From positions 1 to 38,472 of the forward strand of contig JAPLOE010000120.1 in the NCBI GenBank assembly GCA_026692705.1: 38,472 bases of DNA, in the 5' to 3' direction. The DNA is from Planctomycetota bacterium (GTDB taxonomy: Bacteria; Planctomycetota; UBA1135; GCA-002686595). The notes below the pieces were generated by a model that was given only the letters and a program-made list of their open reading frames with translations, was not told the DNA's origin and ran no database searches. Position numbers and translations under genes: made by a program. Below, piece by piece: positions 29,145-38,472 of this stretch. Position 1 is the stretch's first letter, and every line of letters starts with the position of its first letter.

Positions 29145-30482
29145 CTACGGCGCGCGCCGCAAGCGCGCGAAGTAGCCGCCATCGATCGGGCCGGCGCCGC
29201 GCTCCTGCGTCGTGTCGGTGTCGGGCAGGCTCTCGCGCTCTTCCTCGAGGGTCCACCCCGCGTGGCGCGTGAGGAACGCGTCGACCGTGCGGCGGTTTTC
29301 CTCGGGTTCGATCGAGCAGGTCGACCACACCAGCCGGCCGCCGGGGCGCACGAGCTCGGCCGCGCGGTCGATGAGCCGCGTCTGGATGGCCGCGAGCTCC
29401 GCGCGCGAGGCCGGGCCGAAGCGCCAGCGCGCCTCGGGCCGCTGCGCGAGCACGCCGGTGTTGCTGCACGGCGCGTCGACGAGCACGCCGTCGAACGTGC
29501 GCGTCCCCAGCGCCTCGCCGGCGTCGGTGGCGAGCACCTCGACGCGCTCCTCGACGCCCAGACGCTGCACGGTCGAGCGCAGGCGCTCGAGCCGCGATTC
29601 GTTGGAGTCGCAAGCAATGACGCGCGCGCCGGAGGCCGCGAGCACCGCCGTCTTGCCACCGGGAGCCGCACACAGGTCGACCAGCTCCTCGCCCGCGCGC
29701 GCCTGCAGCGCTTCCGCCGCGCGCAACGCATGCTCGCCCTGGATCGTGAGCCGGCCTTCGGTGAACGCCGCGCAGGACGTGACGGCTTCGGCCGTGGCCG
29801 AAGGCGCGAGCAACACGCGCTCGTGCACGCCGTCGCGCGTCTCGACTCCGAGCGCGCGCAGTTCGTTCGCGAGCTCCGCCCGCTCGCCCGCAACCACGCG
29901 CATCGAAAGCGGCGCCTCGTCGAGCGCCAGCTCGGCCAGCGCACGCGCCTTGGCCTCGCCGTGGCGCGCGATCCAGCGCTTGAGCATCGGCGCCGGCATC
30001 GAGAGCGCGTCTTCGGCCCACAGGAGCGGATGTTCGACCGGGTCGCGGAACACCGGCTCGCGGAACGAAAGGTTGCGCCCGACGAGATCGCGGCGCGGAT
30101 CGCCGGAACGCGCGTTCTCGAGCCGGTCGTACAGGCTGTTCAGGAATTCGCGCGCGATGCGGACCTTCGCGGGCCCCAGCGTCTGGCGCACGGCGTCCGA
30201 ACACTCCGCGAGCACCGCGTGCGGCGGGATGCGGTCGAGGAACAGCGCCTGCGCGAGCGCGATGTGCAAATGCGCGAGCATCTCGGCGTTCTTGATCGCC
30301 GGCGCGATGGCGTGGATCACGGCACGGAGCGTCGTGCGGCGACGCACTTCGGTGCCGAGGATGCGCCGCACGAGCCCGCGGTCGCGCGCGTCGAGCTCGG
30401 CCTCGTCGGAAAAGCGCTCCACGTCGCGCAAGGGCGTCGTGGAACCGGAACGCAGGATCGCGTAAGCGACGAGTCGGCTCAT
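29145..30482 (-). CDS. rsmB: 16S rRNA (cytosine(967)-C(5))-methyltransferase RsmB
   Basis: A 445-residue RNA m5C methyltransferase. An N-terminal NusB-like RNA-binding domain (about 1-140) is followed by the SAM-binding core with DLCAAPGGKT (about 260-269). The two family cysteines are in VDAPCSNTGVLA and in WSTCSIEPEENR, the nucleophile and release residues. The C-terminus ends GYFARLRRAP, as expected. ATG 30482 overlaps the fmt stop (ATGA), matching the classic fmt-rsmB gene order; the ribosome probably re-initiates here. Confidence 0.9.
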   Translation of the reverse strand: MSRLVAYAILRSGSTTPLRDVERFSDEAELDARDRGLVRRILGTEVRRRTTLRAVIHAIAPAIKNAEMLAHLHIALAQALFLDRIPPHAVLAECSDAVRQTLGPAKVRIAREFLNSLYDRLENARSGDPRRDLVGRNLSFREPVFRDPVEHPLLWAEDALSMPAPMLKRWIARHGEAKARALAELALDEAPLSMRVVAGERAELANELRALGVETRDGVHERVLLAPSATAEAVTSCAAFTEGRLTIQGEHALRAAEALQARAGEELVDLCAAPGGKTAVLAASGARVIACDSNESRLERLRSTVQRLGVEERVEVLATDAGEALGTRTFDGVLVDAPCSNTGVLAQRPEARWRFGPASRAELAAIQTRLIDRAAELVRPGGRLVWSTCSIEPEENRRTVDAFLTRHAGWTLEEERESLPDTDTTQERGAGPIDGGYFARLRRAP

Positions 30483-31429
30483 TTCGGATTCGTCGGTGGC
30501 GTGCCGACCGTCTCGCCCTTGGCTATGCGCGCACCGCGCAGGAATTCCGCGGCCGGCAGCGCGCGCTTGCCTGCGGCTTGCACTTCGAGCAGCTCGAGCG
30601 CACCGCTGCCGCAAGCGACGACGAAACGCGCGCCCGCTTCGAGCACGGTGCCCGGCGCCGCTTTCGCGTCCCCTTCGACCACTTGCGCCGCGAGCAAGTT
30701 GAGCTCGCGACCCTTCGGATCGCAGAAACGCACGAGCGGCCACGGATTGAACGCGCGCACCGCACGCTCGAGCTCGACCGCGGACTTCGTCCAGTCGACC
30801 GCGCCGCGTTCCTTGCGGATCTTGCGCGCGTAGGTCGCACGCGTCGGATCCTGCGGAGTGAACGTCGCGTTGCCGTCTTCGAGCCGATCGAGCGCTTCGA
30901 CGAGCGCTTCGCCGCCGAGCACCGCCAGCGACGCGAACAGGTCACCCGAAGTCTCGCGCGGGCCGATCGTGCGCTCCTTCGCGAGCAACACGTCGCCTTC
31001 ATCGAGCGCGAGCACGATGCGCTGGATCGAAACGCCCGTTGCCGCATCGCCCGCGAGCACCGCCGCCTGGATCGGCGACGCACCGCGCCAGCGCGGCAGG
31101 AGCGAGCCGTGCACGTTGAGCGCACCTTGAGGGCAAAGCTCGAGCAACGCCGGCTTCAGGATCACTCCGTAGCTCGCGACGCACAGCACCTCGGGCCGCA
31201 ACGTGCGCAATTCCCCGAGGAATTCGGGCGCGTGCGGGTCCGCGGGCTGGAACACGGCGAGGCCGTGGCCGCGCGCCGCGCGCACGAGCTCCGACTCCTC
31301 GACCTCGCGACTGCGGCCGCGCGGCTTGTCGGGCAAGGTCACCAAAGCGAGCGGCCGGTGCCTCGAGCGCACTAGGCGTTCGAGCACCGGCGTCGCAAAC
31401 GGCGGCGATCCGAGGAAGACGGTCCGCAA
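30479..31429 (-). CDS. fmt: methionyl-tRNA formyltransferase
   Basis: A 316-residue enzyme that formylates initiator Met-tRNA. The N-terminal Rossmann domain starts VFLGSPPFATPVLERL. The formyl-donor signature is NVHGSLLPRWRGASPIQAAV (about residues 105-124), with the active-site Asn-x-His. ALDEGDVLLAKE (metabolic Asp) follows, then a C-terminal OB-like domain (about 205-316) with ATYARKIRKERGAVDW. Its start is TTG 31429, an unusual codon chosen because the family sequence begins there and no ATG fits. It lies six bases after trxA. Confidence 0.93.
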   Translation of the reverse strand: MRTVFLGSPPFATPVLERLVRSRHRPLALVTLPDKPRGRSREVEESELVRAARGHGLAVFQPADPHAPEFLGELRTLRPEVLCVASYGVILKPALLELCPQGALNVHGSLLPRWRGASPIQAAVLAGDAATGVSIQRIVLALDEGDVLLAKERTIGPRETSGDLFASLAVLGGEALVEALDRLEDGNATFTPQDPTRATYARKIRKERGAVDWTKSAVELERAVRAFNPWPLVRFCDPKGRELNLLAAQVVEGDAKAAPGTVLEAGARFVVACGSGALELLEVQAAGKRALPAAEFLRGARIAKGETVGTPPTNPK

Positions 31430-31435
31430 CGGACG

Positions 31436-31759
31436 TCAGATCTTCGAGAGGACCGTCAGCTTGAACTTCTCGTACGGCTGGCTGCCGACGATCTGGTGCA
31501 CGACCTCGCCCTTCTTGATGATCAGGAAGGTCGGGATGGCGTTGATGCCGTAGCGCGCGGGCACGTCCGGGTTGTCCTGCGTGTTGAGCTTGACGACCTT
31601 GAGCTTGCCGGCGGTCTCGTCCGCGAGCTTGTCGACGTAGGGCGCCATCGCCTTGCACGGACCGCACCAGTCGGCCCAGAAATCGACGAGGACGGGGAGT
31701 TCGCTCTGCAGGACGGCGGTGTCCCACACGGCGTCGGTGACTTCGGCGGCTTTGCTCAT
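31436..31759 (-). CDS. trxA: thioredoxin
   Basis: A 107-residue thioredoxin with the redox site WCGPCK (Cys32, Cys35), the conserved buried Asp (VDFWADWCGPC), and cis-proline in AIPTFLIIKKGE. It reduces disulfides in the cytoplasm using thioredoxin reductase, which is not in the window. Length is normal. Placed ahead of fmt and rsmB, it would share their transcript. The upstream TATTCT at 31805-31810 gives a leader of about 40 bases. Confidence 0.95.
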   Translation of the reverse strand: MSKAAEVTDAVWDTAVLQSELPVLVDFWADWCGPCKAMAPYVDKLADETAGKLKVVKLNTQDNPDVPARYGINAIPTFLIIKKGEVVHQIVGSQPYEKFKLTVLSKI

Positions 31760-31804
31760 GGAGAGTCTTGGGGTGTCTGGGGGGAGCGGAGGGCTGAGAG
31801 GCCG

Positions 31805-31810
31805 AGAATA
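31805..31810 (-). promoter_or_regulatory. TATTCT -10-like element of trxA-fmt-rsmB
   Basis: On the reverse strand TATTCTCGGCC lies about 45 bases before the trxA ATG. It nearly repeats the element before kdsD. Confidence 0.4.
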
Positions 31811-31869
31811 TGGGACGCGAAAGGCGGAGAGTCCACCCCGCGCGCGTTCCTGCGGCTGGGGTGCGGGCT

Positions 31870-32856
31870 TCAGGCCTGCCCGGGCTCGCCGTCGAGCTCT
31901 TCCGCGAGCGTGTGGCCACGCTCTTCGGCCTCGGCCGGCTCCTCGACCGCGGCGATGCGCGGCAGTTCATAGTCGCTCTCGTCCTCGTCGTCGTCTAGGC
32001 CCTCGAACACGCTCGCCTCGGGCGGCGCGGGCTCGCTCGCGGCGGCGGAGGGAGCGTCGGGGTCCTCGATGCGCTCGTCCTCGAACTCGGTCTGGCGCAC
32101 GATGCTGTCGAGGTCGTCGCCGAGGTCCTCGCGCAGCGAGATCACGATGTCGGACTGCTTCGATTCCTGGCGCGCGCGCACGGCGCCGAGCTTGACCAGC
32201 TCGAGCAGCGCGCAGAAGGCGCCGATCATCGTGACCTTCGTGGCGCCGCCGGTCGCGACCGCCTCGTCGACGAGCTCGCGCAGCGACATCGAGCGCCGCG
32301 CCTTGACCGTGCGCACGAGCTGCTCGACGTAGAAGCGCAGCGGCCGGTCCTCGGTCGCGATCACGATCGACTTGTGCGAGAGCGTCTCGCGCATCAGGCG
32401 CGAGAAGGCCGCGAACAGGTCCCAGTTCGTGACTTCGCCGAGGTCGAGGCCGCCGTCGGCGTCGGTCGCGGGCCGGTAGCCGCGCTCGTGGATCTTCGAA
32501 CGCAGCTCGAAGCGGTCCTGCAGGTCGCGCGAGGCCTGCTTGAAGTGCCGGTACTCGATCAGGCGCTGGATCAGCTCATCGCGCGGGTCGAGCTCCTCGG
32601 CGAGGTCGATCGTCTCGCTCGGCAGGAGCGAACGCGACTTGATCGCCATCAGCGTCGCCGCCATGACGAGGAAGTCGGCCGCGAGCTCGATGTCGATCTC
32701 CTCGAGCGCCTTCAGGTAGCCCAGATAGCCCTCGATCACCCTGTGCAGGTTGATCTCGTGGATCTCGACTTCCTGCTCGCGCACGAGGTGCAGGAGCAGG
32801 TCCATGGGGCCATTGAAGACCTGTTCGAGAGAGACGGTGTAGTCGCGGCTCACCAT
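31870..32856 (-). CDS. scpA: segregation and condensation protein ScpA
   Basis: A 328-residue kleisin of the bacterial SMC condensin. The N-terminal domain (about 6-90) has FNGPMDLLLHLVREQEVEIH, INLHRVIEGYLGYL and LAADFLVMAATLMAIKSRSL, LLP. The middle is helical; the C-terminal winged helix (about 200-255) has SLRELVDEAV and GAFCALLELVKLGAVRARQE. After it comes an acidic tail of about 75 residues (DEDESDYELP and so on), which is longer than in textbook ScpA. It overlaps the protease stop by 7 bases. A GTG at 32853 is an alternative start that gives a four-base overlap. No scpB follows on the same strand; the next gene is trxA. Confidence 0.9.
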   Translation of the reverse strand: MVSRDYTVSLEQVFNGPMDLLLHLVREQEVEIHEINLHRVIEGYLGYLKALEEIDIELAADFLVMAATLMAIKSRSLLPSETIDLAEELDPRDELIQRLIEYRHFKQASRDLQDRFELRSKIHERGYRPATDADGGLDLGEVTNWDLFAAFSRLMRETLSHKSIVIATEDRPLRFYVEQLVRTVKARRSMSLRELVDEAVATGGATKVTMIGAFCALLELVKLGAVRARQESKQSDIVISLREDLGDDLDSIVRQTEFEDERIEDPDAPSAAASEPAPPEASVFEGLDDDEDESDYELPRIAAVEEPAEAEERGHTLAEELDGEPGQA

Positions 32857-33689
32857 AGGCCACCCGTGAGGAAGTCGATCGCGTCGAACAGCGCCAGTGC
32901 ACCGTCCCAGACGGCCCGTCGCAGGCCGGGGATGTAGTTCATCGCCGCCATGATGCCGACCACGAGCAACATGCCGAAGCGCTCGAGGTCCTGAAAGGGC
33001 TCGCGCAGCCCCGAGGGCAGCAACCACGCCATGACGCGCGAGCCGTCGAGCGGCGGCACCGGCAGCAGGTTGAACACCGTCAGCATCAGGTTCGCGAACA
33101 CCGCGTACTGCAGCACCCCGAACATCAGGTCGCCGGCGCGGTAGTCGCCGAACGTGTAGGACGCCTTGAGGGCGAGCAGGAACACGATCGAGAGCAGGAA
33201 GTTCGTCACCGGGCCGGCGAGCGCGACGAACATCATGTCGCGCAGCGGGTGGCGCAGGCGGTGGTAGTTCACGGGCACGGGCTTCGCGCCGCCGAAGGGC
33301 GGCTGGCCCATCAGCATCAGCGCCCCCGGCAGGATGACCGACAGGAAGGGGTCGATCGAGGCGAGCGGGTTGAGCGTGATGCGCCCGAGATCCTTGGCCG
33401 TCGGGTCGCCGCACTTCCACGCCACCCAGGCGTGCGCGGCCTCGTGCAGCGCCAGCGAGATCACGAGGAACGTGACCACGAACACCACCTCGAGGATGCC
33501 GATCGTGCCCGAGCTGAGCCGGCCCTGGACCGGGGCGAGCGCGCACAGGGCGGCTCCGCACAGGGTCGGGACGTGCTCCGAAGGCAGCAACTGGCCCTGC
33601 AGGAGCGGGCGCGAGAGCGTGGAACGCAGCCAGGAAAGCACGGGTGCAGGGCGGGCGCGGACGGCGCTCGGCCGCGATTTATAGCACAT
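32850..33689 (-). CDS. M50-type site-2 protease (membrane metalloprotease)
   Basis: A 279-residue polytopic zinc protease. The metal motif is HEAAH (H82, E83, H86) in the first conserved helix. NLLPVPPLDGSRVMAWLL, the third-ligand Asp motif, lies about residue 210. Five or six helices surround them. This short form (the rseP-lacking-PDZ group) is often found next to scpA in bacteria and is thought to cut transmembrane substrates; the substrate here is unknown. ATG 33689 is the longest start. The TATAAA element at 33678-33683 lies just inside it, so GTG 33641, 16 codons later, may be the real start. Confidence 0.88.
   Translation of the reverse strand: MCYKSRPSAVRARPAPVLSWLRSTLSRPLLQGQLLPSEHVPTLCGAALCALAPVQGRLSSGTIGILEVVFVVTFLVISLALHEAAHAWVAWKCGDPTAKDLGRITLNPLASIDPFLSVILPGALMLMGQPPFGGAKPVPVNYHRLRHPLRDMMFVALAGPVTNFLLSIVFLLALKASYTFGDYRAGDLMFGVLQYAVFANLMLTVFNLLPVPPLDGSRVMAWLLPSGLREPFQDLERFGMLLVVGIMAAMNYIPGLRRAVWDGALALFDAIDFLTGGLW
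33678..33683 (-). promoter_or_regulatory. TATAAA -10-like element of the M50-scpA pair
   Basis: TATAAA reads on the reverse strand inside the first codons of the long M50 start. If it is the promoter, translation starts at GTG 33641. Confidence 0.4.
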
Positions 33690-33737: not shown

Positions 33738-34778
33738 ATGAGCGTCGACCGACGGACTGCCGTGGATACAGGGAAGACGATGGGTACGAGCGAAACCGGT
33801 TCTTCCCGCGCCTCCGACCGGCTCGAACGCGCCCGCGAGGTGATCCGGGTCGAGGCCCGCACGATCGCGCGCCTCGAGCAGCTGCTCGACCAGCGCTTCG
33901 TCATGGCCATCGACCTGCTGCTCGAATGCCGCGGCAAGGTCGTCTGCACAGGCATGGGCAAGGCCGGCCTGATCGCCCAGAAGGTCTCGGCGACGCTGGC
34001 GAGCACCGGCGCCGACTCGATTTACCTGCACCCGGCCGAGGCCCTGCACGGCGACCTGGGGCGCATCCGCCCGGGTGACGTGCTGCTGGCGCTCTCGAAC
34101 TCCGGCGAGACGGCCGAGGTCAAGGTCGTCGTCCCGGTCGCGCGCAAGATCGGCGCCAAGGTCATCACGCTGACCGGCAACACCCAGTCCGGCCTCGCGC
34201 AGCTCTCCGACATCGTGCTCGACATCGGCCGCGTCGACGAGGCCTGCCCGCTCGGCCTCGCGCCGACGGCGAGCACCTCGGCGATGCTCGCGCTCGGGGA
34301 CGCGCTCGCGATGGTCCTGTCGGCCGAGCGCCGCTTCAGCCGCGAGGAGTACGCCCTCTACCACCCGGCCGGGTCGCTCGGCCGCAAGCTGATGCGCGTG
34401 GTCGAGGTGATGCGCCGCAACGCCGAGCTGCCGCTCGTGCCCGTCGGCGCCACGCTGTCCGCCACGCTGCGCATCATGGGCCACACGCCGGGCAAGCCCG
34501 GTGCGGCGCTGGTCGTCGCGACCGACGGTTCGCTCGCGGGCATCTTCACCGACGGAGACCTGCGGCGGCTGGTGGCCGAGCGCGGCGAGCTCGGCCGCGA
34601 GGACCCGATCGATCGTTTCATGACCAAGAGCCCCAAGTCGGTGCGGCCCGACCAGCTGCTCGAGGAAGCCGAGCGGCTCCTGCGCGAGTTCCGCGTCGAC
34701 CAGATCCCTGTGCTCGACGAGCACAACCGCCCGGTCGGCCTGCTCGACGTGCAGGACATTCTCGACACGCGTCTCTAA
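33738..34778 (+). CDS. kdsD: arabinose-5-phosphate isomerase KdsD/KpsF
   Basis: A 346-residue enzyme that makes arabinose 5-phosphate, the precursor of Kdo in lipopolysaccharide. The SIS domain (about 55-185) has VVCTGMGKAGLIAQKVSATL, HPAEALHGDLGRI and LALSNSGETAEV (substrate-phosphate binding). The CPLGLAPTASTSAMLALGDA signature follows. Two CBS domains fill the C-terminus (about 225-346). The first 25 residues are extra and may be dispensable; an ATG at 33780 (residue 15) could serve as a shorter start. It leads a kdsD-kdsC-lptC-like set. Confidence 0.93.
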   Translation: MSVDRRTAVDTGKTMGTSETGSSRASDRLERAREVIRVEARTIARLEQLLDQRFVMAIDLLLECRGKVVCTGMGKAGLIAQKVSATLASTGADSIYLHPAEALHGDLGRIRPGDVLLALSNSGETAEVKVVVPVARKIGAKVITLTGNTQSGLAQLSDIVLDIGRVDEACPLGLAPTASTSAMLALGDALAMVLSAERRFSREEYALYHPAGSLGRKLMRVVEVMRRNAELPLVPVGATLSATLRIMGHTPGKPGAALVVATDGSLAGIFTDGDLRRLVAERGELGREDPIDRFMTKSPKSVRPDQLLEEAERLLREFRVDQIPVLDEHNRPVGLLDVQDILDTRL

Positions 34779-34789
34779 GCTCTGGCCCC

Positions 34790-35329
34790 GTGAAGGGGGA
34801 GGGTCCGGAGGCGCGTTTCGCCGAGCTCCTGAAGCCGGTGAAGCTGTGCGTGTTCGACGTCGACGGCACGTTGACCGATGGCTCCGTGCTCGTCGGGCCC
34901 GGTGGCGAGTCGCTGCGCTTCTCGGTGCAGGATGGCTTCGGGCTGAAGGAGCTGCAGAAGGCCGGCTTGACGGTCGCGTGGATCACCGGGCGGCGCTCGC
35001 CGGCGACGGTGGCGCGCGCGGAGTCGCTCGGCGTCACCGAACTCAAGCTGGGCCAGCTCCACAAGACCGAGGCGCTGCGCGAGATCCAGACGCGCCTCGG
35101 CATCACGCCGCGCGAGACGGTCGCGCTCGGCGATGACCTGCCGGACCTCTCGCTGCGGCCGCTGGTCGCGTTCCTCGCGGCCCCGGCCAACGCGCGCATC
35201 GAAGTCGCCTCGCGCGCGGACTTCGTCACCCACGCGGCCGGTGGCGCCGGTGCCGTGCGCGAGTTCGCCGAGCTCGTCCTGCGCGCCCAGGGCCGCTGGG
35301 CCGCGATCGTCGCGTCCTACGGGGAATGA
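34790..35329 (+). CDS. kdsC: 3-deoxy-D-manno-octulosonate 8-phosphate phosphatase KdsC
   Basis: A 179-residue HAD phosphatase of the KdsC type that releases Kdo from Kdo-8-phosphate. Motif I is FDVDGTLTDG with catalytic D23 and D25. WITGRR supplies motif II, HKTEALREI the lysine, and GDDLPDLSL motif IV. Length and the absence of a cap domain fit KdsC, which acts as a tetramer. The start is GTG 34790, preceded by TAAGCT and CTGGCCCC, the same start-proximal text as kdsD. Its stop overlaps the next ATG (ATGA). Confidence 0.92.
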   Translation: MKGEGPEARFAELLKPVKLCVFDVDGTLTDGSVLVGPGGESLRFSVQDGFGLKELQKAGLTVAWITGRRSPATVARAESLGVTELKLGQLHKTEALREIQTRLGITPRETVALGDDLPDLSLRPLVAFLAAPANARIEVASRADFVTHAAGGAGAVREFAELVLRAQGRWAAIVASYGE

Positions 35330-38300
35330 GAAAGCTCCTCGTCTTCCTGTTGCTCGCGCTGCTGGGTGGCAGCGCGCTGTGGTGGTTCGACCGTCGCTCG
35401 CGACGGCCGGAGGACACCACCGTGCCCGCCGGAGAAGCGGCGGAGCAGCAGCCCGAGCGAGCGGCGCCCGAGCCCAACCGGGGCGTGCTCACGGAAGTGA
35501 AGGACGGCGCCGGCAAGGGCGCGCAGGTCGCGCTGTCGGGCCCGCTCGACGTGTGGGCCAACGACATGAGCACGGGCGAGCCGCGCAAGCGCTCGCACCT
35601 CGTCGCCGCCGACTGCGCGACGCTCGAGGGCGGCCTGTTCGACCTGCGCGACACGACGCTCGAGCTGTTCGTGCCCGAGACCGGCGCCCGCGAGGCGATC
35701 GCGCACGCGCGCGAGGTCAAGGCGCGCATGCGCGTCGATCCGACGCCGGCGCTCGACGAGCAGTACCCGATCACGCTGGTCGACACCGTCGTCACGTACG
35801 AGACGGGCTCGCGCTTCGCGCCGGTCACGCTGCGCGTGCCGCGGCTGCAATCGGTCGTCGCGCTCGAGAACGCGCACTCCGACGACGCGCTCACGATCTC
35901 CGGCAACGGCATCGAGGCCTCGGGGCGTGGGCTCGACGTCGAGCGGCGCGCGGAGGTCATCCGTCTGCTCGCGGATCCGCGCGCGACCGTGCAGCTCGAG
36001 GACGGCTCGACGGCGACGCTCTCGTCGAAGGGCGAGCTCGTGCTGCGCGCGCGACCCGATCTCGGGCCCGAACATGCGGAAATCTCGCTGAAGGATGGCG
36101 CGCACCTCGTGCTCGCGGGCCTCGAGCCGCTCGACCTGCGCGCGCAGAGCATCGAGCTCGTCGGCGTGATGGAGCGCCGCGCGGGCGCGCGCTTCCGCCC
36201 CGTGTCGATCCACGCGCACGGGGAAGTGGTCGTCACTCCCGACGAAGGCGTCGCGCACGGCGACACGCTCACGATCGAGTTCGACGAGACGGGCAAGAAC
36301 GCGCGGGGCACGCTCGACGGCGCGCCGCAGCTCGACCTCGTGCTGCGCGGCGCGAAGCTCGTCGACGTGCCGATCGAGCTCCTGCGTGAGGGCGAGACGC
36401 TGACGGTCAAGCTCGATGGCGCCGGCCCGCTCGAGCTCTCGCTCGGCGACGTGCGCGACTTCACGTTCACGGGCCCGGCGCGCCTGCAACTGCCCGCGAT
36501 CGGCGCCGTGCTCGAGTGCGACACGTCGATCCGCGGCCAGGGCGTGATCGTGAACGGCGTCGAGGAGCGCGAGCTGGTCGCCGACGGCAACGTGCGCTTC
36601 AAGTACGAGGACTCGACGCTCTCGACCGCATCGCTCAAGCTGCGCTCTTACGTCGACGCGGAAGGCCGCACGGCGGCGGAGCTGGTGTGCGAGCAGGGCA
36701 CGCGCATCATGGGCCGCCTCGCCGACGGCGACGAAGTCACGATCGAGGCGCGCGGCGGCCTCGTCGCGCGGCGCTCGCGCTCGCGCACGCTGCTGCCCTA
36801 CGCGCGCAACGTCGCGTTCGATGTGCGCGGCAAGCGCCCGATCTCCGGCCGCGCGGCGCTGATCACCGATCTCGACGTTGACGAGCGCCGTTTCGTCGCT
36901 GAGGGCGACGTCGAGGTCGTCACGGCCGACGGACGCGGCACCGGCGAGCGTTTCGAGGCGCGTTCGGAGCGCAGCGGCGAACTCTCGGGCACGCTCGAGC
37001 GGCCGGCGCGACTGGAGACCGGGCAAGGCTGGTTCCAGGCGCTGTTCCTCGACGTCGACGAGCACGTCGTCGACGCGCACGGCGCCGCGCACGCCTCGGT
37101 GACGCACGGCAACCTCGCGCACGAGATCGACGCCGGCTGGATCGTCGTGCAGCGCGGCAATCCCGTCGAGGACGACCCAACGCCGGCCGATCTCGTGCTC
37201 GACGCGGGCGGCGACGTGCACATCGTGCGCCGCGCGCCCGGCACGCACCTCGACGTGCGTGCGGACCGTTTCCACGCGGAGGCCGACGAGCTCACCGACG
37301 CCGCGGGCAAGCTCGATTTCGCGCCGACGCTCGTGATCGCCGGCGGCAACGTCGCGTTCGAGATCGACCAGCTCGGCGTGCACCGCGAGGGCGCGGCGGG
37401 CCGGCTCGAGCTGCGCGGCGACCGTTCGGGCGAGCTCGAGCCCGCGCTCGGCGGCAAGGTCTCGCTCAACGGCCAGATCGAAGGTCGCCCCGGCCGCTTC
37501 GACCTGCTCGCCGACCGCATCGAGTTCACCACCGAGCGCCTGCTCGCGTCGGGCTTCGAGCTCGAGCTCGACGGCATCGTCTCGGGCCTCTCCGCGGAAG
37601 CGACGTCGCCCGAGGCGCGGCGCGTGCGCGTGATCGGCGGCCTGATGTCGCTCGATCGCTCGCTGCTCGCGCTCACGCGCGGCGTCTACATCGGCGGCAA
37701 GACGCGCGACCTCGAGCCGTGGTCGCTCGATGCCGAGCTCGTGCTCCTGCGCAGCAAGCCGATCGAGAGCGGCATGCAGGAGCGCGACGTGCCGGCGGCG
37801 CTCGTCGACATCATCGCCGAAGGCGCAGTGCAGGTTTCCGTCTCGCCGATGGGCCGCGCGCGCGCACGCCTGCTCACGCTCGACCACGACTCGCGCCGCA
37901 TCACGCTGCTCGGCGATCCCGACTCCGAAGAAAATCGCGAGGCTGTGATCGAACGCGGCGGCGTCGCGTGGCGCTCGAGCGAATTCACCTTCGACCTCGC
38001 CTCGGGCTTCCTGCAGTCCGCCGCGGGCCGCGTGCTGTCCGACCCGAGCCTGCCGGAGAGCTGGTCGTTCAGCTACGACGCGCTCGAGCCGTTGCTGCTC
38101 GAGGATCGCAACGCGCTCGTCTTCCGCCAGCCCGTGTGGCAGAGCGGCGCCTCGCTGCTGCGCGCGAACTGGGCGATGCTGTGGGTCGATCAGGCCGAGT
38201 GGAACAAGCTCGGCGGCGGCTCGCGCAAGGAGCCGCTCGTCGACGATCCCGACGCCGCCGCCGCGCGCCGCATGCCGTCGCGCATGCTCGGTGGGCTGCC

Positions 38301-38472
38301 CGTCGATCGCTTCGGCGCCTGGCTGCACGAGCTGTACCTCGACGGTGACGTCGAATACCGCATCAACGACGTGCGCAAGGCGCGCGCGGCCGGCGTGTAC
38401 GTCGACATGGTCGATGGCCACGGCTGGGTGCACGACTTCGTGCTCGACGTCGACCTGCCGATCGGCAGCCGC
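35326..38472 (+). CDS. giant LptC/OstA-like envelope protein (partial, runs off the window)
   Basis: An open frame of 1049 codons with no stop before the window ends. The N-terminus, MRKLLVFLLLALLGGSALWW, is an uncleaved membrane anchor like that of LptC, and a Pro/Glu-rich linker follows. The rest is almost wholly beta: successive strands of the type LTISGNGIEASGRGLDVERR, VRFKYEDSTLSTASLKLRSY and FVAEGDVEVVTADGRGTGER. The last of these resembles the OstA/LptA text for bridging lipopolysaccharide across the periplasm. LptC is normally about 190 residues. The place after kdsD-kdsC is exactly where lptC and lptA sit in E. coli, and the gene overlaps kdsC. A fused LptC-LptA-like bridge is the best reading, with an AsmA/TamB-like lipid bridge as alternative. 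Confidence 0.7.
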   Translation, partial: MRKLLVFLLLALLGGSALWWFDRRSRRPEDTTVPAGEAAEQQPERAAPEPNRGVLTEVKDGAGKGAQVALSGPLDVWANDMSTGEPRKRSHLVAADCATLEGGLFDLRDTTLELFVPETGAREAIAHAREVKARMRVDPTPALDEQYPITLVDTVVTYETGSRFAPVTLRVPRLQSVVALENAHSDDALTISGNGIEASGRGLDVERRAEVIRLLADPRATVQLEDGSTATLSSKGELVLRARPDLGPEHAEISLKDGAHLVLAGLEPLDLRAQSIELVGVMERRAGARFRPVSIHAHGEVVVTPDEGVAHGDTLTIEFDETGKNARGTLDGAPQLDLVLRGAKLVDVPIELLREGETLTVKLDGAGPLELSLGDVRDFTFTGPARLQLPAIGAVLECDTSIRGQGVIVNGVEERELVADGNVRFKYEDSTLSTASLKLRSYVDAEGRTAAELVCEQGTRIMGRLADGDEVTIEARGGLVARRSRSRTLLPYARNVAFDVRGKRPISGRAALITDLDVDERRFVAEGDVEVVTADGRGTGERFEARSERSGELSGTLERPARLETGQGWFQALFLDVDEHVVDAHGAAHASVTHGNLAHEIDAGWIVVQRGNPVEDDPTPADLVLDAGGDVHIVRRAPGTHLDVRADRFHAEADELTDAAGKLDFAPTLVIAGGNVAFEIDQLGVHREGAAGRLELRGDRSGELEPALGGKVSLNGQIEGRPGRFDLLADRIEFTTERLLASGFELELDGIVSGLSAEATSPEARRVRVIGGLMSLDRSLLALTRGVYIGGKTRDLEPWSLDAELVLLRSKPIESGMQERDVPAALVDIIAEGAVQVSVSPMGRARARLLTLDHDSRRITLLGDPDSEENREAVIERGGVAWRSSEFTFDLASGFLQSAAGRVLSDPSLPESWSFSYDALEPLLLEDRNALVFRQPVWQSGASLLRANWAMLWVDQAEWNKLGGGSRKEPLVDDPDAAAARRMPSRMLGGLPVDRFGAWLHELYLDGDVEYRINDVRKARAAGVYVDMVDGHGWVHDFVLDVDLPIGSR

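Follow-up and report, generated by a model that had tools for sequence, protein, structure and literature searches.

Gene content and extent of the locus

We analysed a 38,472-nucleotide stretch of DNA from a Planctomycetota bacterium (hereafter the window; assembly GCA_026692705.1, contig JAPLOE010000120.1), which is the entire contig C120 of a draft genome of 4.95 Mb. At its 3' end, on the plus strand, a frame of 1049 codons starts with an ATG at 35326 and is still open where the contig stops (38472). A preliminary description, made from the sequence letters, had placed a protein of more than 1049 residues here, in the lptC position after kdsD and kdsC and overlapping kdsC by ATGA. Both points are borne out: genes for KdsC and a KdsD/KpsF isomerase lie upstream, and the kdsC stop and the start of the new gene share positions 35326–35329. 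We consider it highly probable, from sequence comparison with relatives, that the gene encodes a single-chain lipopolysaccharide (LPS) transport (Lpt) bridge of ∼1,690 amino acids, i.e. a natural LptC–LptA–LptD fusion. The features of the locus are:

35326..38472, plus strand: putative fused lptC–lptA–lptD gene, 5' part (1049 codons); the 3' part (641 codons) is on contig C63
35329..35394, plus strand: predicted N-terminal membrane anchor, residues 2–23; a strong hydrophobic N-terminal segment occurs in all 51 complete fused proteins
35818..35985, plus strand: LptC-like stretch, residues 165–220, from TIGR04409 and PF06835 matches
35668..37965, plus strand: bridge with internal OstA-like repeats, residues ∼115–880, from hhalign comparisons; approximate, with positions carried over from relative L032
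38020..38064, plus strand: junction linker, residues ∼899–913, from the junction alignment and the geometry of the open reading frames (ORFs); two-gene relatives have a stop and the signal-peptide-like start of LptD here
38065..38472, plus strand: beginning of the LptD part (periplasmic N-terminal domain), residues ∼914–1049; the C-terminal profile matches sister-family LptD, and the remainder is on C63
35326..35329, plus strand: ATGA start/stop overlap of kdsC and the bridge gene; the same 4-base overlap occurs in 42 of 66 loci
34790..35329, plus strand: kdsC (3-deoxy-D-manno-octulosonate-8-phosphate phosphatase), TIGR01670 E 2.4e-35, above cut-off
33741..34778, plus strand: kdsD/kpsF-type arabinose-5-phosphate isomerase, TIGR00393 E 1.9e-81, above cut-off, with SIS and CBS domains; its frame is open from 33249

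The window protein is conserved in 34 of the 61 genomes searched with the single sequence (E ≤ 0.001), and a profile search matches the window family protein in 77 of 81 genomes of the family, so the frame is not a chance one. The opposite strand of the gene also holds a frame of 1038 amino acids, which is most simply a by-product of high GC content.

A profile built from 18 relatives has just two matches in the window's genome. One is the window frame (profile positions 1–1045) and the other is a 641-codon frame (positions 1049–1668) at the extreme end of contig C63 (15,611 bp), which reaches the contig's last base and is open there. The window ends with ...DVDLPIGSR and the C63 frame starts with LKVKADWLRSS. 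L031, a close relative given by the contig scan and 89% identical over window residues 483–1049, has three residues between these stretches, so about three codons are absent between C120 and C63. Together, the two parts would make a full gene of about 1,690 codons.

Fused and two-gene forms within the family

Every frame of the fetched loci was scored with profiles of the family. Sixty of the 81 family genomes have a fused gene, complete in one frame in 51 of them (1594–1956 amino acids, median 1702) and incomplete in nine, where it is interrupted by the end of a contig, by a frameshift or by one in-frame stop (G000, which is the window's genome, G004, G006, G024, G066, G072, G079, G085 and G098; G072 was judged from genome-wide profile matches alone). 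Eleven genomes have two genes (G020, G021, G022, G027, G035, G036, G061, G062, G074, G092 and G093) and six are unclassed (G026, G034, G078, G086, G087 and G091). In the remaining four (G023, G029, G065 and G081) the profile search matched neither part; this suggests loss or assembly gaps, because three of the genera to which they belong (g57, g60 and g24) have matching members. The in-frame stop is that of locus L120 (G079), near bridge residue 213; in other respects this fused gene is complete. Besides its complete copy on C35, G064 has another one that looks fused (G064:C11:87-3755, a 1256-aa frame).

The fused gene is also carried by G095, a single contig of 7.7 Mb, which makes assembly error unlikely; the two-gene form occurs in G035 (one contig) and G022 (two contigs). 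Since single- and two-contig genomes hold them, both forms appear to be real. The two-gene relatives break exactly at the junction: the bridge gene ends in a stop, and LptD follows in the −1 frame, its N-terminus being hydrophobic and resembling a signal peptide. LptD lies in the same relative frame, overlapping or abutting the bridge gene, in all 14 two-gene loci examined. In the fused proteins, a linker replaces the stop and the signal-peptide-like segment; most have a linker of ∼10–15 residues, and seven form a group with a longer one. Seven of the 51 complete fused proteins have an additional weaker hydrophobic peak somewhere along the chain; in just one of them (L119, residues 979–995; threshold 1.6) does it lie close to the junction.

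At the class level, 141 of 154 genomes match. Among the matches listed outside the family, none begins before profile position 906, and their frames are 507–1207 amino acids long, which indicates that LptD is separate there. A tree of the LptD part (75 rows, 74 of them labelled) needs at least two changes between the fused and split states and groups the fused genes in blocks, although a test on 46 of the 75 rows does not reject one clade of fused genes (p 0.18). The fusion may have arisen twice, as the best tree would have it.

Composition of the fused protein

The preliminary description held that the protein is anchored like LptC, and its N-terminus supports this: all 51 complete fused proteins have the hydrophobic segment, AxA-type sites are less frequent than in separate LptDs and the stretch after the hydrophobic core has more lysine and arginine. 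Of 65 bridge N-termini, 13 have an AxA-type site behind the core, compared with nine of 15 N-termini of separate LptDs, and the 12 residues after the core contain on average 1.97 lysine or arginine residues in the bridge versus 0.27 in separate LptD (some start codons were picked by hydrophobicity, which biases towards anchors; the kdsC overlap independently backs the same starts). The pattern agrees with an anchored bridge and with a signal that is cleaved from the separate LptD. Behind the anchor, the LptC model TIGR04409 matches 10 of 18 members (best E 4.1e-8), with its curated cut-off passed in none of 61 genomes, and a further LptC model, PF06835, matches seven of the 18 (best E 5.6e-5) and exceeds its cut-off at residues 161–218 of L036.

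The long middle part is repetitive. Segments of the bridge match one another (hhalign P up to 95.9, E 5e-9), and one of them matches the LptD N-terminal domain (P 77); controls from the same genomes against the same segments gave P ≤ 0.3 for kdsC and P ≤ 1.3 for segments of the LptD barrel. The repeats are offset by about 150, 225, 375 and 527 residues, which suggests units near 75 or 150 residues; Escherichia coli LptA, as cut here without its signal peptide, has 158. On that basis, ∼870 residues would correspond to five to six units as large as LptA, together with the LptD domain. The OstA model PF03968 matches one of the 18 members, at 0.0015. The chain had been described as nearly all beta strands. 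This is supported for residues 240–560 and 560–900, which have more beta- than alpha-type amphipathicity (z 2.8 each), and not for residues 24–240 (z 0.7) and 900–1049 (z 0.0), which have no beta bias.

LptD is a large outer-membrane barrel with a jellyroll domain, plugged by LptE. The C-terminal ∼700 residues of the fused proteins are homologous to it: the C-terminal profile of the fused family aligns with six sister-family LptDs over 726 columns (hhalign P 100, E 1.2e-69), whereas single E. coli TamB, TamA and BamA as controls gave P ≤ 0.7. Four of these six LptDs, encoded by separate ORFs in four sister-family genomes, exceed the cut-off of the LptD model PF04453. The fused-family C-terminal profile recovers these ORFs as well, with E values of 8e-35 to 8e-89, and it is thus through the sister families that the C-terminal part is connected to E. 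coli LptD. Across 37 genomes searched, PF04453 matches eight, four of them over cut-off and all four in sister families. The part on C63 matches the family LptD profile at E 1e-256. DUF3769, a model linked to cyanobacterial LptD, weakly matches three of the 18 members (best E 5.6e-4). A scan of viral contigs with the LptD profile found no relative.

Model and profile searches of the window's genome found no separate LptC, OstA/LptD_N or LptD. The separate full-length lptC and lptA genes that would speak against the preliminary description were thus not seen there; little weight attaches to this, since these models hardly detect the fused protein itself. The description's proposal that one protein replaces LptC and LptA is supported as far as it goes, with N-terminal LptC-model matches in relatives and OstA-like repeats in a protein that appears to cover both roles; it was incomplete, as the chain also includes a whole LptD.

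Gene neighbourhood and Lpt pathway genes

Among the 66 family loci with a complete bridge N-terminus, kdsC adjoins the bridge gene in 54; kdsC and lptC of E. coli K-12 likewise overlap by 4 bases, and the position after kdsD–kdsC corresponds to that of lptC in enterobacteria. In the other 12 loci no kdsC lies within the fetched stretch; nine of these belong to genus g65. The nine genomes of this genus (L131-L138 and L142) have a longer fused gene, of 1834–1956 amino acids in the eight that are complete.

The preliminary description had raised the question of whether lptA or lptB follows the gene. Neither does: in the six loci checked (ten proteins), the genes 3' of the fused gene encode either a TatA-like protein or a TIM barrel (several of the matches to TatA stay below cut-off, and two of the ten proteins have no meaningful match), and LptB is located elsewhere. 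The small TatA-like protein and/or an AP_endonuc_2 TIM barrel recur downstream of the bridge gene at L036:10259-10681, L041:10508-11929, L047 and L048.

The window's genome contains LptB (over cut-off), LptF/G, LpxC, a WaaA domain and KdsC/KdsD. Among the 37 genomes searched, LptF/G and LptB were each found in 37, LpxC in 36 and WaaA in 32, the window's genome being included each time. Before kdsD, the minus strand of the window (29145–33600) holds, by eye, RsmB-like methyltransferase, Fmt-like formyltransferase, thioredoxin, ScpA-like and M50 protease-like genes.

Weighing of alternative explanations

Several observations weigh against a single-chain Lpt bridge. In the window's genome the gene is split over two contigs, and we infer its continuity from relatives; 11 of the 81 family genomes manage without the fusion, and the uncut state of the chain in the cell is assumed. 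Direct comparisons with known Lpt proteins are poor: the window protein itself reaches only E 0.2 against TIGR04409, segments of the bridge reach at most P 16 against single E. coli LptC and P 4.7 against single E. coli LptA, and the C-terminal part scores P 0.6 against single E. coli LptD, no better than the controls. PF03968 has no match in the 37 genomes searched, the window's among them, and PF04453 has none at E ≤ 1 in the window's genome; the latter model gives a signal in just two of 14 control genomes, so this miss reflects low sensitivity and not exclusion. Searches of two profiles against solved structures returned chance matches only. AlphaFold2 models made without an alignment were unusable (pLDDT, the predicted local distance difference test, 31 for the L031 LptD part and 36 for window residues 24–240), and the fold assignment consequently rests on sequence homology.

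Four other explanations can be set against the fusion. The chain could be translated as one and then cleaved close to the junction once in the periplasm, which would yield an inner-membrane-anchored LptC–LptA and a separate LptD, much as in the two-gene relatives. The junction linker is indeed poorly conserved, and long and of low complexity in one group of fused proteins, and in 11 of 81 genomes the two proteins come from separate genes. Against this, the linker is just ∼10–15 residues in most fused proteins, no signal-peptide-like segment stands in its place and L119 alone has a hydrophobic peak at the junction; we regard such cutting as unlikely. It is far less credible that errors of sequencing or assembly have turned two overlapping genes into the fused frames, even though the constant −1 arrangement of the 14 two-gene loci means that one indel could join the frames. 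The fusion recurs in 60 of 81 genomes and many genera, one single-contig genome included; the linker replaces the signal-peptide-like start, with no read-through of that start; and the tree puts the fused genes in blocks and not at random (two changes, 74 labelled rows).

The two remaining explanations concern what the protein is. TamB/AsmA-like bridges are long, beta-rich and inner-membrane-anchored, and carry lipids; they are not known to have an outer-membrane barrel of their own. A large phospholipid carrier of this kind, and not an Lpt protein, would account for a long, beta-amphipathic, N-terminally anchored chain, and E. coli TamB has the same amphipathic bias. The window family has no sequence match to such proteins, however: TamB reaches P ≤ 1.5 against the bridge segments, LptC-model matches and LptD homology are found instead and kdsC is the neighbour in 54 of 66 loci. 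We rejected this very improbable reading, as no AsmA/TamB Pfam or NCBIfam match is among the families listed at E ≤ 1 for the 18 members. An LptC–LptA fusion only, with LptD encoded elsewhere, was the version of the preliminary description and agrees with the greater part of the 1049 residues that the window shows. Yet the C63 part is LptD, and 51 relatives have the complete fused frame, which leaves this version hardly any probability.

Proposed mechanism

A jellyroll fold with a groove, insertion into both membranes, the absence of proteolytic cutting and LPS transport itself are what we infer for the single-chain bridge. The mechanism proposed here is drawn by homology from that of E. coli, as outlined in passages of PMC3944529 and PMC10094684. 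The N-terminal helix would stay in the inner membrane beside LptB2FG, as that of LptC does. LptB2FG would load LPS, which an LptC-like beta-jellyroll would accept from LptF. Five to six OstA/LptA-sized units in an unbroken run could then provide a hydrophobic groove in which the lipid A part crosses the periplasm, with successive LPS molecules pushing along one covalent groove. The LptD periplasmic domain and outer-membrane barrel would end the chain and deliver LPS to the cell surface. With less assurance than for the fusion itself, we think it probable that one uncut polypeptide in both membranes is the sole periplasmic part of LPS export; it would form a permanent bridge without hand-over between proteins, and would set or limit the distance between the membranes.

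Comparison with known systems and implications

The locus resembles the Lpt system of E. coli in its place after kdsD–kdsC with a 4-base overlap, in the putative LptC-type anchor, repeated OstA-like bridge and LptD, and in the presence of LptB and LptF/G. It differs in that E. coli has separate LptC (191 aa), LptA (185 aa) and LptD (784 aa) compared with one chain here, in that lptB is not adjacent and in that the bridge greatly exceeds the combined length of LptC and one LptA. The two-gene planctomycete relatives in the same and sister families (such as L046, L083, L092 and L093) share the homologous bridge ORF followed directly by LptD; they have a stop and a signal-peptide-like start between the genes where fused members have a linker. 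Many Gram-negative bacteria encode predicted fusions with up to four OstA domains, and four have been suggested for spanning the periplasm (PMC3944529). Such fusions, noted in Pfam, likewise have several OstA domains per chain, but the passage of PMC3944529 that describes them names neither an LptD barrel nor an inner-membrane anchor.

According to the relevant part of PMC10665443, the elongated MlaD of Veillonella parvula combines an inner-membrane helix and an outer-membrane barrel in one protein that forms a transenvelope lipid bridge, and its anchoring in both membranes was proposed with localisation data. It is the strongest precedent for a chain that sits in both membranes, although it is an MCE hexamer with an alpha-helical tunnel that serves phospholipid trafficking and not Lpt (PMC10665443). 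In Negativicutes, LptA and LptC are described as separate, as is LptD in V. parvula (passages of PMC5007114 and PMC5491611).

For planctomycetes, LptD has been identified in genomes by BLAST, in a paper from which the words LptC, LptA and fusion are absent (PMC3422733), and the Lpt and Tol-Pal gene sets have been summarized as largely reduced in groups such as Planctomycetes (PMC8871954). Diverged, fused genes could be one reason why surveys such as the latter, as summarized there, miss Lpt genes. No earlier report of an LptC–LptA–LptD fusion was found in the open-access literature, the scope of our search, to which bioRxiv and subscription papers do not belong.

The number of LptA molecules in the E. 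coli bridge is stated as open in passages of PMC3944529 and PMC10094684, one of which also leaves open whether the bridge is permanent. In a natural version made of one chain, the stoichiometry is fixed and the continuous-bridge model can be tested directly, and structural work gains a natural single-gene construct. A one-chain bridge also raises a new assembly question, i.e. how the outer-membrane barrel folds while the other end of the chain is held in the inner membrane. If the chain is indeed uncut, the safeguard of E. coli, in which the bridge joins only after LptD has folded, would need a replacement, and a second kind of both-membrane lipid bridge would stand beside the elongated MlaD.

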